This document shows positions 1 to 24,646 of a stretch of DNA of 33,835 nucleotides, one piece after another. Source of the stretch: an uncultured Puniceicoccaceae bacterium (GTDB taxonomy: Bacteria > Verrucomicrobiota > Verrucomicrobiia > Opitutales > Coraliomargaritaceae); contig CAJQOS010000107.1 in the NCBI GenBank assembly GCA_905479975.1, forward strand, positions 1-33,835, read 5' to 3'. The notes beneath the pieces were generated by a model that was not told where the DNA came from, made no database searches, and saw nothing but the letters and a program-made list of their open reading frames with translations. The position numbers and the translations under genes are program-made. The stretch's first letter is position 1, and every line of letters begins with the position of its first letter.

Positions 1-270
1 GGGGAGAAGCAGTTCCGCTACTTTCCAAGATACCTGCTCAAATGCATCCAAGACTGGTTCGCTCACCACGGCGACGAACTCTACGAAGAACTCAAACACG
101 TTCGTAATCAACTCTGCACCATCGAGGCGCTCCTCCAGCAAAATCCACACACTCAAATCGAGCCCCAGCATACACACGTCACGCGTCTCGCCGACGCGCA
201 TCAGATATTAAAACAACAAATCAACGCGAACAAAATTAGGCAAAATGACAGGCAACTCGAACTCTTGTAA
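1..270 (+). CDS. 3' end of an unidentified gene, 89 codons visible (5' end off the window)
   Basis: Frame 1 is open from the first base to a TAA at 268-270 and has no start of its own in the window. The visible product is polar and probably helical, beginning GEKQFRYFPRY and ending NDRQLELL, with several Gln/His-rich stretches. Codons favour C or A in the third position more than the G/T-rich genes to the right, which fits DNA of different origin. It ends about 22 bp before the repeat array of the element end, so it is probably a cargo or transposition gene of that element. I do not recognise the family and assign no function. Confidence 0.5.
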   Translation, partial: GEKQFRYFPRYLLKCIQDWFAHHGDELYEELKHVRNQLCTIEALLQQNPHTQIEPQHTHVTRLADAHQILKQQINANKIRQNDRQLELL

Positions 271-291
271 CAAAAAAATGACTCAAAAACA

Positions 292-398
292 TCGGAAAAA
301 CACGTTCAAATCCTACGACGAGGACGATCATGTTTTACGACCACAGCTCGGAAAAATACCCCAAAATCCTACGACCTCAAATTGGAAAGAATTACGAC
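292..398. repeat. Direct-repeat array inside the transposon end (candidate transposase-binding sites)
   Basis: Two 28-bp direct repeats occupy 292-319 and 348-375 and match at about 24 of 28 positions. Both start TCGGAAAAA and end ATCCTACGAC. A shortened copy lies at 382-398 (TTGGAAAGAATTACGAC), and a further core TTTTACGAC is at 333-341. The TACGAC cores start at 314, 336, 370 and 393. Closely spaced direct repeats next to a TG...CA terminus are typical of TnsB/TniA/MuA-type ends. Confidence 0.6.
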
Positions 399-399
399 G

Positions 400-1122
400 T
401 CAAAAAAAGCGCTTACAGATGATGAACGCGATGTTTTGAGCGGTATAGTTATCTGAGTAATAGGTGGCAAAGCGATCGCGCGGCGCACCTGCGATTACCG
501 ATTCGAGGCCGATAGGGAGACGCTGACTTGCGAGGAAGTTGGGCATGAGGAACTCGAGACGTTGTTCGAGCAGGCGCATCTGCACAGAGTCGCGCGAGTT
601 CATTTCGGCGAGCACGACGCCGCGCTCTTTATCGATCTCGTCAGTTTCCAAGAGTGCGCCGTCGGCGAAGTCGCGCATCACGGTAAAGGCGAGGTCGAGT
701 GTGTCTTCTTCGATGTTAGGCAGGTCGAGCATATAGACGGTTTCGTCGAAAGAGGTGTAAGCATTCGCGTGTGCTCCGAATGCGATGCCGAGGCGCTGCA
801 TTTTAGGAATGAGCAGGCTGGCGTCGGGGAAGTGCTTGCTGCCGTTAAACACCATGTGCTCCAGGAAGTGAGCTAGGCCACGTTGGTCTTCGGATTCGCT
901 GAGCGAGCCGGAGTCGACATGCAGCCGAAGGGAGACGCGACCCGGCGGTTCTGCATTGGGTAGGATGGCATAGCGCATGCCGTTTTCCAGCGTGCCGAAG
1001 GTGACGGTGGAATCGACTGCGACATCACTATCGAGGTGCGCCCATTGCGTGGCGTTGAGAGAGCACGTGCAGAGAGCGAGCAGGGAAAGTGCTACGAGGC
1101 TTGTAAATTTATGGTAATACAT
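400..1122 (-). pseudogene. M16 zinc peptidase (insulinase/pitrilysin family), truncated by an insertion
   Basis: This is the N-terminal part of a secreted M16 metallopeptidase. The ATG at 1122 gives a signal peptide (MYYHKFTSLVALSLLALCTC, cleavage probably near LNA). An upstream in-frame start at 1206 would bury that signal. The inverted zinc motif HFLEH lies at about residues 85-89, inside the typical LAHFLEHMVFNG context, and the usual downstream ERGVVLAE segment follows. The native frame runs 235 codons to base 418. It then continues CKRFF and stops inside the inserted element, where intact relatives carry a beta-strand leading to the rest of the first domain. Bacterial family members of this kind are commonly several hundred residues longer, so this copy lacks most domains and is probably not functional. 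Confidence 0.85.
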
Positions 1123-5210: not shown

Positions 5211-6008
5211 CTAGCTTAGGTTGAAAAATGCCTTGGTGTTGGCAGTGGCGTGTGCGGCGAGTTCCTCGGGTGTGATTGCCATCGCCTCGGCGCAGCGTCG
5301 TGCGATGTCGGCGAGGTAGGCTGGTTCGTTGGGCTTGCCGCGATGTGGCTCGGGTGTGAGGTAGGGGCAATCCGTCTCCAACATCAGGCGATCAGTGCCT
5401 TGCGTGCGTAGCGCTTCGCGAATGTCGGGCGCGTTTTTGTAGGTGACGACCCCCGTGAAAGATGCGCGACCACCGCGTTGATTGATCTGTGCGATTTCGT
5501 CGGAGCCGTAGGTGAAACAGTGGAACACGATACGGCTCCAATCGATACCAGATTCGTCGATCATGCGCACGGTGTCGTCAAACGCGTTGCGACTGTGGAT
5601 GACCACAGGGCAATCGAGTTCGGAGGCAAGCATGAGTTGCTGACGAAAAGCCTCCTCCTGAAAGATCATGGTTTCACCTGCTTGGACCGGGTCTTTCGGT
5701 AGGTGAAAGTAGTCGAGGCCGATCTCGCCGAATGCGACGGGCGCGTGTGGCGGCATGAAAAAGGTCGAGATTTGGCTGACGTCTGCCTCCCACTCGGCAT
5801 CCACGTAGCAGGGGTGCAGGCCGACGGTATAGTCGATTTTCCCTGTGTAGGCCGCATGCAGTTCACGGTAGGGCACCCAGTCTTTCGGCGAGGTGCCGAC
5901 GGTGATAAAGCGCTGCACACCCGCGTCCGCGGCGCGTTCGAGCACGGCGTCGAGTTCGCCCTTTTCCTTGAAGCCTAATAGGTGGCAGTGGCTGTCGATG
6001 AGTTCCAT
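5211..6008 (-). CDS. tatD: TatD-family metal-dependent hydrolase (DNase)
   Basis: The 265-residue protein has the TatD TIM-barrel metal ligands in order: the N-terminal DSHCHL (residues 5-10), [33 protein letters not shown] and the late [15 protein letters not shown]. Family members are Mg-dependent 3'-5' exonucleases linked to DNA repair or turnover; their exact substrates vary. The start at 6008 ([10 protein letters not shown]) leaves almost no residue before the first motif, as in relatives. The leader on the sense strand is C/T-rich and has no Shine-Dalgarno. It is followed 6 bp downstream by the repeat-protein gene. Confidence 0.92.
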
Positions 6009-9039: not shown

Positions 9040-10029
9040 ATGAAAAGGTTGCGGAGGGCTAAGGTGGTTGGAGTCAGCGCTGCATACCATGCGATGAGTC
9101 GCACTGTGGGGGGAGCATTTCTATTTGAGGATAGGGAGAAGGAGATGTTGCGAAAGATGATTTGGCAAGTGGCTGATTTCTGTGGGGTGGAGGTGTTAAC
9201 TTATTGCATCATGTCGAACCATTTTCATGTGTTGATTCAGGTTCCTTGTGTGGACTCTGTCTCTGATGTAGAGCTGCTTCGTCGTTTTAAAGTGCTGTAT
9301 CCGAAGCCGACGAAATACCAAGTGGCGTCTTTTGCTGAGATTGAACGCTTATTGCGCGCTGGCGGTGATGAGGCGTCTGAAGTTCGTCAGAAATTGTTGG
9401 CGCGAATGGGTGATTTGTCAGAATTCATGAAAACGGTGAAACAGCGTTTTTCTGTGTGGTATAACCGTAGTCATCATCGCTATGGCACGTTGTGGGCCGA
9501 CCGTTTCAAGTCGGTGCTGGTTGAGGGGCTGGGCAACCCACTGCAAACAATGGCCGCTTATATTGATCTCAACTCAGTGCGTGCGGGGATCGTCAATGAT
9601 CCCAAAGATTATCGTTTCTGCGGCTATGCCGAGGCGGTGGCTGGTGTGAAAGAAGCGAAGTCGGGGTTGATCCATATTTGGAGTGACCATGGTGTGACAC
9701 GGATCGATTCAGCAATGCGTGCCCATCGAACGCTGATTTTTGGTAAGCATGCATCTGAGCCCAGCTTATCTGAGATGACGCGCAAACGTGCGTTGAAAGT
9801 GCTGGATCAGGAAGATGGCCAGTTGCCGAAGTCAGTGATGCTGCGCTGCCGTGTGCGCTACTTTACCGATGGGGCGATTCTGGGGTCTACTGAGTTTGTG
9901 CGTGGCTTTACCGGAGCCTGGCAAATGGAGCGCGGACGCAAGCATCCGCCGAAGGTCAACGCGATTAAGGGCACGGATTGGGGCGATCTAGCAGTGATCC
10001 ATGGCCTGCGAAGGCGGGTCTTTGGCTGA
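9040..10029 (+). CDS. REP-associated tyrosine transposase (RAYT, Y1/HUH family)
   Basis: The 329-residue protein shows the Y1_Tnp pattern. The N-terminus is AAYHAMSRTVGGAFLFEDREKE, the HUH motif appears in CIMSNHFHVLIQVP (residues 57-70), and the conserved block with the candidate catalytic Tyr is VKQRFSVWYNRSHHRYGTLWADRF. The AAYIDLNSVRAGIV segment and a long C-terminal extension follow. RAYTs are single-copy domesticated relatives of IS200/IS605 transposases that bind and cleave REP hairpins on single-stranded DNA. No insertion-sequence ends are obvious around it. REP-like inverted elements occur at several spacers in this window (1721-1776, 11710-11784, 14002-14183, 17723-17813) and are candidate substrates. 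Confidence 0.85.
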   Translation: MKRLRRAKVVGVSAAYHAMSRTVGGAFLFEDREKEMLRKMIWQVADFCGVEVLTYCIMSNHFHVLIQVPCVDSVSDVELLRRFKVLYPKPTKYQVASFAEIERLLRAGGDEASEVRQKLLARMGDLSEFMKTVKQRFSVWYNRSHHRYGTLWADRFKSVLVEGLGNPLQTMAAYIDLNSVRAGIVNDPKDYRFCGYAEAVAGVKEAKSGLIHIWSDHGVTRIDSAMRAHRTLIFGKHASEPSLSEMTRKRALKVLDQEDGQLPKSVMLRCRVRYFTDGAILGSTEFVRGFTGAWQMERGRKHPPKVNAIKGTDWGDLAVIHGLRRRVFG

Positions 10030-11633: not shown

Positions 11634-11709
11634 TTGGTTGCCGAGCGTAGTGAGTGAGTCGATTCGAGCAACTTTGAAATCAGAGTAGTGCGGTGGGTTG
11701 GATCGAGTT

Positions 11710-11784
11710 GTCGAAATGGCTTCGCCAGTCCGCTACGGAAGCGGGAGGATCTGGTGTAGCGGAATCCGCGAAGCGGTTTCGATC
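11710..11784. repeat. REP-like inverted repeat upstream of the DUF4870-cdd pair
   Basis: The left arm, TCGAAATGGCTTCGCCAG followed by TCCGCTAC (11711-11736), and the right arm, GTAGCGGAATCCGCGAAGCG followed by GTTTCGATC (11756-11784), are imperfect inverted copies with a 19-bp loop. The arms carry the CGCTTCGCGGATTCCGC type of palindrome common in REP elements. It is in the spacer between DUF4870 (-) and the 3' end of yaaA (-). Confidence 0.6.
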
Positions 11785-21735: not shown

Positions 21736-24390
21736 TTATTCGGGTGGGGGCGCTTTTTTCGGGGTTGTGGCGATGTATTTTTTCAGCTCGTCACTCTGCT
21801 TGCGTAGCTTTGCCTCGAGTGTCTTCGCGATCGTGATATCTGTGAAGGTGATGACGACGCCGTCGATTCTGTCGTCGACCGTGCGGTAAGGGATGATGCG
21901 CAGGTTGAACCAGTGCAGGTTGTCAGCGACCAATTCTTTCTCCGTCGAGACCAGCGTGCGGATGACTTCCTGCACGTCCTCGGTAAGCTCGGGGTAGTTC
22001 AGGCTCGATGCCAGATCGGTGATGGGGCGACCGATATCACTCGGTATGAGTTTGATGATATGTGTGGTCTGTGGGGTAAACCGTCGGACGTTGAGGCTTT
22101 TATCCAAAAAGAGCATGGCGATGTCCGTGCTGTTGAGGAGGTTTTTCATGTCGCTACTGGTGCGTGAAAGCTCGTCCAGCTTGGTCTGTAGTTCCGCATT
22201 GAGTGTCTGTAATTCTTCGTTGAGCGATTGCATCTCCTCCTTCGAGGTGGTGAGCTCCTCGTTGGTGGATTGTAGCTCCTCATTGGTGGATTGCAGTTCC
22301 TCATTGGCAGAGCGGTATTCCTCTTTGAGTGTCTGCATCGCTTCGTTATTGGCCTGTGCTTCAGACCTGACTTGTAGTAACTCTTGCTCTAAGTCTGTTA
22401 GTCGAGCGCTGGGGCTGCCGACTGGTGGGGCCTTCTTCGCTTTGCCGAGAACTGGTGCCGGCACCTCCTTGAACACGACCATCATTAAGCCCTTCAGTTG
22501 CTTCGGTTCGTGTAATTGTTGAACGGAGATGTCTGCAAAATGCTCGTTTGCGCCGGTCTCGATTCTGACTCTGTTGAGAGTGATGCATTCTTTTTGACGG
22601 AGTGCTTTATGGAATGCGGCGGACAGTTCATAGCGGATGCCTTCTCTGGCCATCGCGAAGAGGTTCCAGTTCGCTTTGCCGGCGGCCGGTTCCAAATATT
22701 TACCAGTGTGACCGCTGATATATAAGATGTCGCCCTGATCGTTAACGAGCGCCGATGGCGGGGCGTATTGCTTGAGGATCAAATGATCCGCCACTGAATG
22801 AAGGCTGGTTGGTGCTTTTTGCGCCGAATGCACATGTTTCTCGATCATCGGAGTGTTGCTAAAGGATGACGGGAAATCGACTGACAGCAGAGCCGCTTGG
22901 CTGGTTTCAGAGCGCTGATAGAGACGCGTTTTACTATTTAACGTGCTGAACAGATTGTTGTAACTGCCGATGGTTTCAGAGTTTCCGAGGAGTAATATGC
23001 CGTTAGGCTTTAGGCTGTAGTGAAAGAGTGGGATCAATTTCTTCTGCACCTTTGCGGATAGATAGATCAGCAGATTTCGGCAGAACAGTAGGTCCAGCTT
23101 GGTAAAGGGCGCGTCCATGGTGATGTTTTGCGGCGCGAAAATGACCATCTCACGGATCTCTTTGCAGATGCGGTAGCCGTTGTCTTGCTTGATGAAAAAT
23201 CGCTTGAGGCGTTCGTCCGAAACATCGACCGCAATGTTGCTCGGGAAGAAGCCCAAGCGCGCTCGATCAATTGCATCCTTATCCAGATCGGTGGCAAATA
23301 TTTGCAGGGTGACATTGTGGATCTTGGCCTGCTCCAGCGCCTCCTTGAATACGATGGCGAGCGAATAGGCTTCTTCGCCACTGGAACAGCCGGCGACCCA
23401 AGCGCGTAGCACTCGTCTGGGGACGCATGCCTTAAGTAGCGCGGGGATCGTTTCTGTGCGTAACTGCTCCCAGACTGGCGCGTCGCGAAAGAAGTTAGTG
23501 ACCCCAATCAGTAGTTCCTTGAAGAGCAGTTCCAGTTCCTGCGGATTTTCCTGCAAGTAGCGGACGTAGGTCGACATTTGAGCGATTTGGTGGATGCCCA
23601 TGCGGCGCTCGATTCTGCGAAAGAGGGTATTCTGTTTGTAGAGGGAAAAGTCGTGCCCAGTCTGCGTGCGCAGGAGGATGATCGTTTTCTCCAATGCGCT
23701 GAGCGCGTTGTCTGCGAGCGGTGCTGGCTTGTGTGGTATGAGCGGGGTGCGCTTCAGGTAAGCCATGATCTTCTTTGGCAGTTCTTCCACCGGTGCCACG
23801 ATATCCGCCAGCCCGGCATCGATGGCGCTACGCGGCATCCCGTCGAATTTGGCGCTCGTCGGCTCCTGCACCAGGACCAGGCCCGCCTTCTCTTTGATGG
23901 CGCGTAGGCCAAGGCTGCCGTCCGACCCCATCCCTGACAGGATGACGCCAATACTCTTTTCCATTTGGTCCTGCGCGAGGGAACGGAAGAAAAAATCGAT
24001 GGGCAGGCGCAGCCCCCGTTTCTTGGTGGGATCGAGTAAGTGCAGCACGCCGTGCAAGATGGACATGTCCTTGTTGGGCGGGATGACATAGACGCAATCC
24101 GGTAGCACCTGGGTGCGATCCTTGACCTGTATGACTTTCATTTCGGTCGCGCGTTGCAGCAGCTCCGGCATCATCCCTTTGTGCGTCGGATCCAGATGTT
24201 GGATGATCACGAATGTCATGCCGCTGCTCGTCGGCACGGCGTTGAGGAATTGCTCCAACGCTTCCAGCCCCCCTGCGGAGGCACCAATGGCTACAATCTG
24301 CAGGGCGGATTTTACGGGCGGTTCCGCTGTTACCTTAGAAGTTGCTGTTTTAGTCGACTTAGCAGCTCGTGGCTGTGGCTTTTTCGTCAT
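21736..24390 (-). CDS. CheB/CheR fusion protein with coiled coil and PAS domain
   Basis: The 884-residue protein from the ATG at 24390 (MTKKPQPRAAKST) has a CheB methylesterase domain (30-215) with the catalytic Ser in GASAGG (S38), His in IIQHLDP (H65) and Asp in SGMGSDGSLG. A CheR methyltransferase domain (about 240-500) follows, with the SAM motif VAGCSSGEEAYSLAI and LLFCRNLLIYL. A PAS-like region, a long repetitive coiled coil (ANEELQSTNEELQSTNEEL, about 670-740) and a final PAS domain complete it. It lacks the REC domain of classical CheB, so its esterase is not under ordinary phosphorylation control. No chemoreceptor or CheA gene is nearby, so a non-chemotaxis role is plausible. An upstream frame to 24501 is rejected as a start. 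Confidence 0.92.
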   Translation of the reverse strand: MTKKPQPRAAKSTKTATSKVTAEPPVKSALQIVAIGASAGGLEALEQFLNAVPTSSGMTFVIIQHLDPTHKGMMPELLQRATEMKVIQVKDRTQVLPDCVYVIPPNKDMSILHGVLHLLDPTKKRGLRLPIDFFFRSLAQDQMEKSIGVILSGMGSDGSLGLRAIKEKAGLVLVQEPTSAKFDGMPRSAIDAGLADIVAPVEELPKKIMAYLKRTPLIPHKPAPLADNALSALEKTIILLRTQTGHDFSLYKQNTLFRRIERRMGIHQIAQMSTYVRYLQENPQELELLFKELLIGVTNFFRDAPVWEQLRTETIPALLKACVPRRVLRAWVAGCSSGEEAYSLAIVFKEALEQAKIHNVTLQIFATDLDKDAIDRARLGFFPSNIAVDVSDERLKRFFIKQDNGYRICKEIREMVIFAPQNITMDAPFTKLDLLFCRNLLIYLSAKVQKKLIPLFHYSLKPNGILLLGNSETIGSYNNLFSTLNSKTRLYQRSETSQAALLSVDFPSSFSNTPMIEKHVHSAQKAPTSLHSVADHLILKQYAPPSALVNDQGDILYISGHTGKYLEPAAGKANWNLFAMAREGIRYELSAAFHKALRQKECITLNRVRIETGANEHFADISVQQLHEPKQLKGLMMVVFKEVPAPVLGKAKKAPPVGSPSARLTDLEQELLQVRSEAQANNEAMQTLKEEYRSANEELQSTNEELQSTNEELTTSKEEMQSLNEELQTLNAELQTKLDELSRTSSDMKNLLNSTDIAMLFLDKSLNVRRFTPQTTHIIKLIPSDIGRPITDLASSLNYPELTEDVQEVIRTLVSTEKELVADNLHWFNLRIIPYRTVDDRIDGVVITFTDITIAKTLEAKLRKQSDELKKYIATTPKKAPPPE

Positions 24391-24646
24391 GATACATTTT
24401 GAGAGTAAATAGTGTAGCTTAAACCGGTAATTAAACCAGCAAGTTATAACCTTTTTTGACGTATATTGCCCTCTGTGGCCGCACCGGCAGGATTCGAGCA
24501 AAAAAAGAGCGCGGCTGTTAGGCCGCGCTCTTTGTTTTTTTGAATGGTTTAAATGAAGACAGGCAGGACGGAGGTCTTCCGAAGATGGCGTCGCGTAAAA
24601 GACTACGTCTCACGCGATTGCAGCAATGCCTGTGTCACTTCACTGA
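24391..24646. other. Spacer between the signalling pair and the OFA transporter
   Basis: No gene. It holds the terminator at 24501-24541, two further hairpins (24555-24579 with GAAGAC/GTCTTC, and 24591-24617 with TCGCGT-AAA-AGAC facing GTCT-C-ACGCGA) in the 3' region of the transporter transcript, and a tRNA 3'-end-like 23-mer at 24476-24498. Confidence 0.6.
24501..24541 (-). terminator. Strong intrinsic terminator of the pfl/OFA gene cluster
   Basis: A 12-bp perfect stem, AAAGAGCGCGGC (24504-24515) with GCCGCGCTCTTT (24522-24533), and a 6-nt loop are flanked by A and T runs on both sides. Read on the minus strand, it ends in a U-tract after the transporter gene. The plus-strand T-run would allow bidirectional action. 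Confidence 0.9.

Follow-up and report, generated by a model that had tools for sequence, protein, structure and literature searches.

Where Mu, IS21 and Tn7 elements insert, and in what manner, is determined by AAA+ helper ATPases, and phased arrays of transposase-binding sites are known in all three. A typical IS481 element consists of a single transposase gene and has no helper ATPase. The ends of IS481 elements are of the TGT/ACA type (PMC11406308) and their duplications vary from 2 to 15 bp, with 6 bp being most common (PMC10045372). IS21 ends carry arrays of transposase-binding repeats, and the IS21 helper ATPase is reportedly needed for correct duplications (PMC10122671). Tn7-like elements use TniQ proteins and make a 5-bp duplication in all relatives (PMC11406308).

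The stretch of DNA analyzed here (from here: the window) is the complete contig C107, 33,835 bases in length, of the draft genome G000 (117 contigs, 94.9% complete). Its first 417 bases are the right end of a repeated element that landed in a peptidase gene. Judging from the interior of related elements, we assign this end to a compact, multi-copy IS481-related DDE transposon that would possess its own AAA+ ATPase, with a probability of about 0.88. The features at this end of the window are:

1..270, plus strand: C-terminal 89 codons and stop codon of ORF3, an orphan helical protein; read in frame +1, which is open from base 1
271..417, plus strand: right end of the element, putatively transposase-binding, with the terminus ...GCGCTTACA; matched on contigs C53, C91 and C78 with different flanks
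314..319, plus strand: TACGAC box 4 (GTCGTA when read inward), 99 bases from the tip; position kept in the ends of G110, G042, G045, G043 and G063
336..341, plus strand: TACGAC box 3, 77 bases from the tip; position kept in several genera
370..375, plus strand: TACGAC box 2, 43 bases from the tip; position kept in several genera
393..398, plus strand: TACGAC box 1, 20 bases from the tip; RTCGTA in seven of eight other right ends and RTCGTG in the eighth
418..424, no strand: target-site duplication GATGATG, with its second copy at the C13 left end of the same insertion
418..1122, minus strand: M16 peptidase gene, 5' portion up to the interruption (PF00675, E 6e-26); start codon taken to be at 1122, with the frame open as far as 1206

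The border of the element lies exactly at 417|418. The right end, comprising approximately 140 bp before base 417, recurs with 98-99% identity on C53, C91 and C78, each time at a contig end. In all four cases the identity ceases after ...AAAAAAAGCGCTTACA, and the flanks past the tips all differ (GATGATGAACG, TAAACGTAAGG, GACTGCTTAAA and AAACAGCGTCG). An earlier note on this DNA had taken the ...GCTTACA terminus beside the M16 gene for a transposon end, and its recurrence on three other contigs with different flanks bears this out. That note had also described the M16 frame as family-like up to base 418, followed by CKRFF and a stop codon. This is what we see: the frame on the minus strand, with its Peptidase_M16 domain, turns into ...NIAFIICKRFF-stop at the element border.

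G003, a genome of the same genus, carries an M16 gene in uninterrupted form, with 79% identity to the fragment in the window. When the remainder of that gene was searched against G000, the match (74% identity, E 5e-251) fell at the very start of contig C13, where the M16 sequence sets in directly after ...GAATTCGGCCGCTTACA, which is the element's left end. Hence, the second end that the earlier note had asked for exists on C13, and left ends of the same type were also found on C106, C7 and C5 (99-100% identity), giving four left and four right ends in G000. The tips TGTAAGC...GCTTACA are present at all four left and all four right ends. When the C13 and C107 flanks were rejoined by script with removal of a 7-bp duplication, the M16 gene read through as one open frame of 399 codons or more. 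As transposon insertions go, this one is ordinary, and the gene that it interrupts has two further paralogues in G000. Directly upstream of the M16 gene and divergent from it, a gene for an ecotin-family protease inhibitor is located at 1233-1709 of the window (PF03974, E 9e-42).

The rest of the M16 gene had been expected past a duplicated GATGA; the remainder is indeed there, while the duplication is not the predicted 5-bp GATGA but GATGATG. A match of 4 bp is formally also possible for the C13-C107 pair, but 7 bp is preferred because it keeps the length seen in G003. The C5-C53 pair shares TAAACG (6 bp), and its rejoined flanks form one uninterrupted reading frame across the junction. The C7-C91 pair shares GACT (4 bp), and its rejoined flanks complete the natural 3' end of an epimerase-like frame; gene names at these two sites are our own reading of the sequence. 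C106 and C78 were paired by elimination only and share no duplication.

Every copy of the element in G000 sits at a contig end and its interior is absent from the assembly, which, in a draft of 117 contigs, could suggest that the borders are artefacts of assembly or binning rather than insertions. We consider this extremely improbable. Repeats are expected to break contigs, and C107 starts inside the element because the assembler stopped within a repeat. Moreover, matching duplications and restored genes pair three of the contig ends, and intact copies exist on long contigs of genome G519 as well as on complete plasmids.

The TACGAC copies at 314, 336, 370 and 393 and the two 28-bp copies at 292-319 and 348-375 (82% alike) that had been pointed out before are all present. 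On the same strand, TACGAC occurs only twice in the remaining 33.4 kb of the window. Not one of 5000 dinucleotide shuffles of 271-418 contained four TACGAC copies, and any non-simple hexamer appeared four times in only 1.6% of the shuffles. Furthermore, RTCGTA boxes occur at exactly 20, 43, 77 and 99 bases inward in ends from relatives of other genera and families. Nearly all boxes keep their positions in G110, G042, G045, G043 and G063, a few being mutated, while the intervening sequence largely differs. At the left end, the same tip is accompanied by scattered box-like sequences in another arrangement. The box array is thus real and conserved, as would be expected of transposase-binding sites, a role that we regard as putative.

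Neither an rve domain, searched for throughout the G000 assembly, nor the interior of the element, searched for with the transposase of a relative, was found in G000. Based on the sequences of its relatives, the interior would measure about 3-3.5 kb and hold four co-oriented genes in the order ORF0-DDE-AAA-ORF3. This order, on one strand, was observed at the intact-element loci L117, L119-L123, L125, L126 and L150-L152. ORF0 encodes a cysteine-rich zinc-ribbon/HTH protein that matches DUF6431 in some members; its structural model was too poor for use (pLDDT 45). The DDE protein of the relatives gives rve and IS481-type matches and shows the spacing D-D-35-E, as read from an alignment. Their ATPase matches AAA_22 and PHROG 296, 'DNA transposition protein', gives no match to IstB and is MuB/TnsC-like.

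Three intact copies of 3,506-3,547 bp are present in G519, consisting of the four genes and nothing else. Their tips, TGTCCCGCGTCACGG...CCGTGACGCGGAACA, are of the TGT..ACA type, and they are flanked by the duplications CCACTCC (7 bp), CGTAG (5 bp) and GAAAGCC (7 bp). The third copy has one extra base at the left junction, and its empty target is seen in another copy of the same repeat. Some of the G519 copies have broken frames, so not all of them are active. These intact 3.5-kb copies contain no cargo, TniQ or CRISPR genes. The suggestion that cargo lies to the left of the window therefore finds no support: there is no sign of cargo, and the intact related copies have none at 3.5 kb.

Three-gene versions lacking ORF3 are located on complete plasmids of Geobacillus, Mycobacterium, Mycolicibacterium and Rhodococcus, and similar cassettes on plasmids of Cupriavidus, Pandoraea and Acidithiobacillus. 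Where both ends could be set, the duplications measured 7 bp (pGS18 and R. opacus B4), 6 bp (LC300 and M. intracellulare 852) or 5 bp (M. gilvum, AH16 and M. abscessus). No exact duplication was found for the copies of pGeo12a and Rhodococcus USK10, and for the copies from Cupriavidus, Pandoraea and Paraburkholderia no right border could be delimited. The elements of M. gilvum and M. intracellulare 852 are reported to be 100.0% identical over 3.35 kb and yet have duplications of 5 and 6 bp, respectively, which indicates that the length varies between copies of one element. The longer matches are not chance extensions of shorter ones, because the matching frame shifts with the length. Overall, duplications range from 4 to 7 bp (4, 6 and 7 in G000, 5-7 in the relatives).

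Right ends were also observed beside unrelated DNA or internal deletions, at L061 (G110, next to an IS256-like gene), L063 (G041) and L066 (G097, a shortened copy). Their persistence indicates that non-autonomous or decayed derivatives are common. In addition, a short GC-rich palindromic repeat, GCGAAGATGGCGAAGCCCC..GGGGTGAG..GACCGGGTGCCC, was noticed within or next to transposase genes of degenerate element copies from two genera (L055:10780-10850 and 11700-11760; L066, G097:C66, 6400-6480; L054 near 5700-5900), a pattern that would fit recurrent hits by a REP- or MITE-like element.

The plasmid cassettes annotated as DUF6431, 'IS481 family transposase' and 'AAA family ATPase' (pGeo12a, pGS18 and M. 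gilvum pMSPYR101) are the closest counterparts by gene order and strand. They likewise encode a zinc protein, an IS481-like DDE transposase and an AAA_22 ATPase within 3.1-3.4 kb, with TGT..ACA ends and duplications of 5-7 bp, but they lack ORF3 and differ in their end sequence. A literature search, on DUF6431 and on the combination of IS481 with an AAA ATPase and with ISfinder outside the comparison, found no paper that describes this cassette as one element.

The best NCBIfam model for every relative's transposase tested was IS481 (84-255 bits), G000's own transposase being unassembled; the cut-off of 224 bits was passed by the Geobacillus protein only. Like IS481, and like IS1202 and IS481EU, the elements have TGT/ACA ends and duplications within the range of 2-15 bp, and the transposase of the relatives is of the rve type with a D,D(35)E motif. 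The elements differ from IS481 in that all intact relatives encode an AAA+ ATPase among their three or four genes and in that most of the relatives' transposases score under the IS481 cut-off. TnRErm46, which is mobilised by IS481 and has similar tips, was considered as a counterpart and rejected, since its transposase is of the single-gene type, it carries cargo and its duplication is a fixed NCTAGN (PMC6794481).

An AAA+ ATPase partner and ends with several binding repeats are shared with IS21 (IstA/IstB). An ordinary IS21-family element with istA and istB would account for the combination of a DDE transposase and an AAA+ ATPase and for the multiple end repeats and TG..CA ends (PMC10122671, PMC11208146), and, among proteins of solved structure, IstA of IS5376 is the best match to the transposase. 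Nevertheless, such an assignment is very improbable: on the relatives' transposases the IS21 model reaches 23-59 bits against a cut-off of 160, lower than the IS481 scores, the ATPase belongs to the AAA_22 and not the IstB family, and two extra genes are present.

The earlier note had favored an affiliation with Tn7 or TniA. A Tn7-like (TnsB/TniA) transposon, possibly CRISPR-guided and with its cargo to the left, would agree with the TGT/ACA ends and the asymmetric box arrays, in which the outer and inner pairs are each 22-23 bp apart (PMC11406308). The weak TnsB match of the transposase points in the same direction, and a DDE transposase, a TnsC-like ATPase and phased box arrays are common to the present elements and to Tn7-like, Tn5053 and CAST systems. 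The duplications of 4-7 bp instead of a fixed 5 bp, the IS481 model as the best for the transposase, and intact, cargo-free copies of 3.5 kb speak against it, as do four G000 copies at unrelated sites. A TniQ gene is absent from every intact related cassette; PF06527 had no match in G000 either, which counts for little as the control was also silent. Cas genes and guide arrays were not found in the intact 3.5-kb relatives, the interior in G000 being unassembled. An affiliation with Tn7 is therefore very improbable, as the transposase is closest to IS481 and the related elements measure 3.0-3.5 kb and lack TniQ, and guided targeting is not supported, the related elements having no CRISPR or TniQ genes.

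Accordingly, we return to the IS481-related transposon. In all probability, it is small and IS481-like, works with a helper ATPase, encodes one protein without known function and is not guided by CRISPR. It is best described as an IS481-related transposon that would act in the manner of IS21 or Mu with its own AAA+ helper. By analogy with IS21, Mu and Tn7, the transposase would bind the phased boxes at both ends, bring these together and cleave 3' of the terminal CA. On the target DNA, the ATPase would assemble and activate strand transfer; two joins placed 4-7 bp apart would then give a duplication of variable length at no fixed target. The zinc protein and ORF3 may take part in choosing the target, in loading the ATPase or in regulation.

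In the window, the last gene of the element is represented by the 3' part of ORF3. Its product shows 36-51% identity to the ORF3 proteins of Opitutales and related genomes; in these, the complete ORF3 gene comes after that of the AAA ATPase. Homologues were detected on 13 GTDB contigs, mostly from Opitutales/Opitutaceae, and in five of 388 genomes sampled from the phylum, and none were found on plasmids or viral contigs. Profile searches against Pfam, NCBIfam, PHROGs, PADLOC and PDB gave no significant relative. An AlphaFold model of fair quality (pLDDT 80) is all-helical with four helices, and its best match among PDB folds had an E value of 2.9. It is conceivable, if rather doubtful, that ORF3 is a new small helical partner added by the Opitutales branch, which might stand in for TniQ in target selection or ATPase loading, within a distinct and undescribed ATPase-assisted IS481-like family with loose strand-transfer spacing (4-7 bp, among near-identical elements).

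The points of interest are the compact ATPase-assisted family, the variable duplication length and the orphan ORF3. A 3-kb, cargo-free IS481-like system with phased boxes and variable duplications would be a small natural model for strand-transfer spacing, and the defined orphan ORF3 lends itself to tests of its role in transposition. For annotation, DUF6431, IS481 family transposase and AAA family ATPase, now named separately, are joined into one element.

Elsewhere in the window, a gene with an IS200-like Y1 transposase domain is located at 9040-10029 (PF01797), probably encoding a REP-associated tyrosine transposase. A short tandem repeat, AGTGAG/AGTGAT, lies at 2361-2396 just past a Cons_hypoth95 (RsmD-like) gene, and a CheB-CheR-PAS fusion protein of 921 residues is encoded at 21739-24501.
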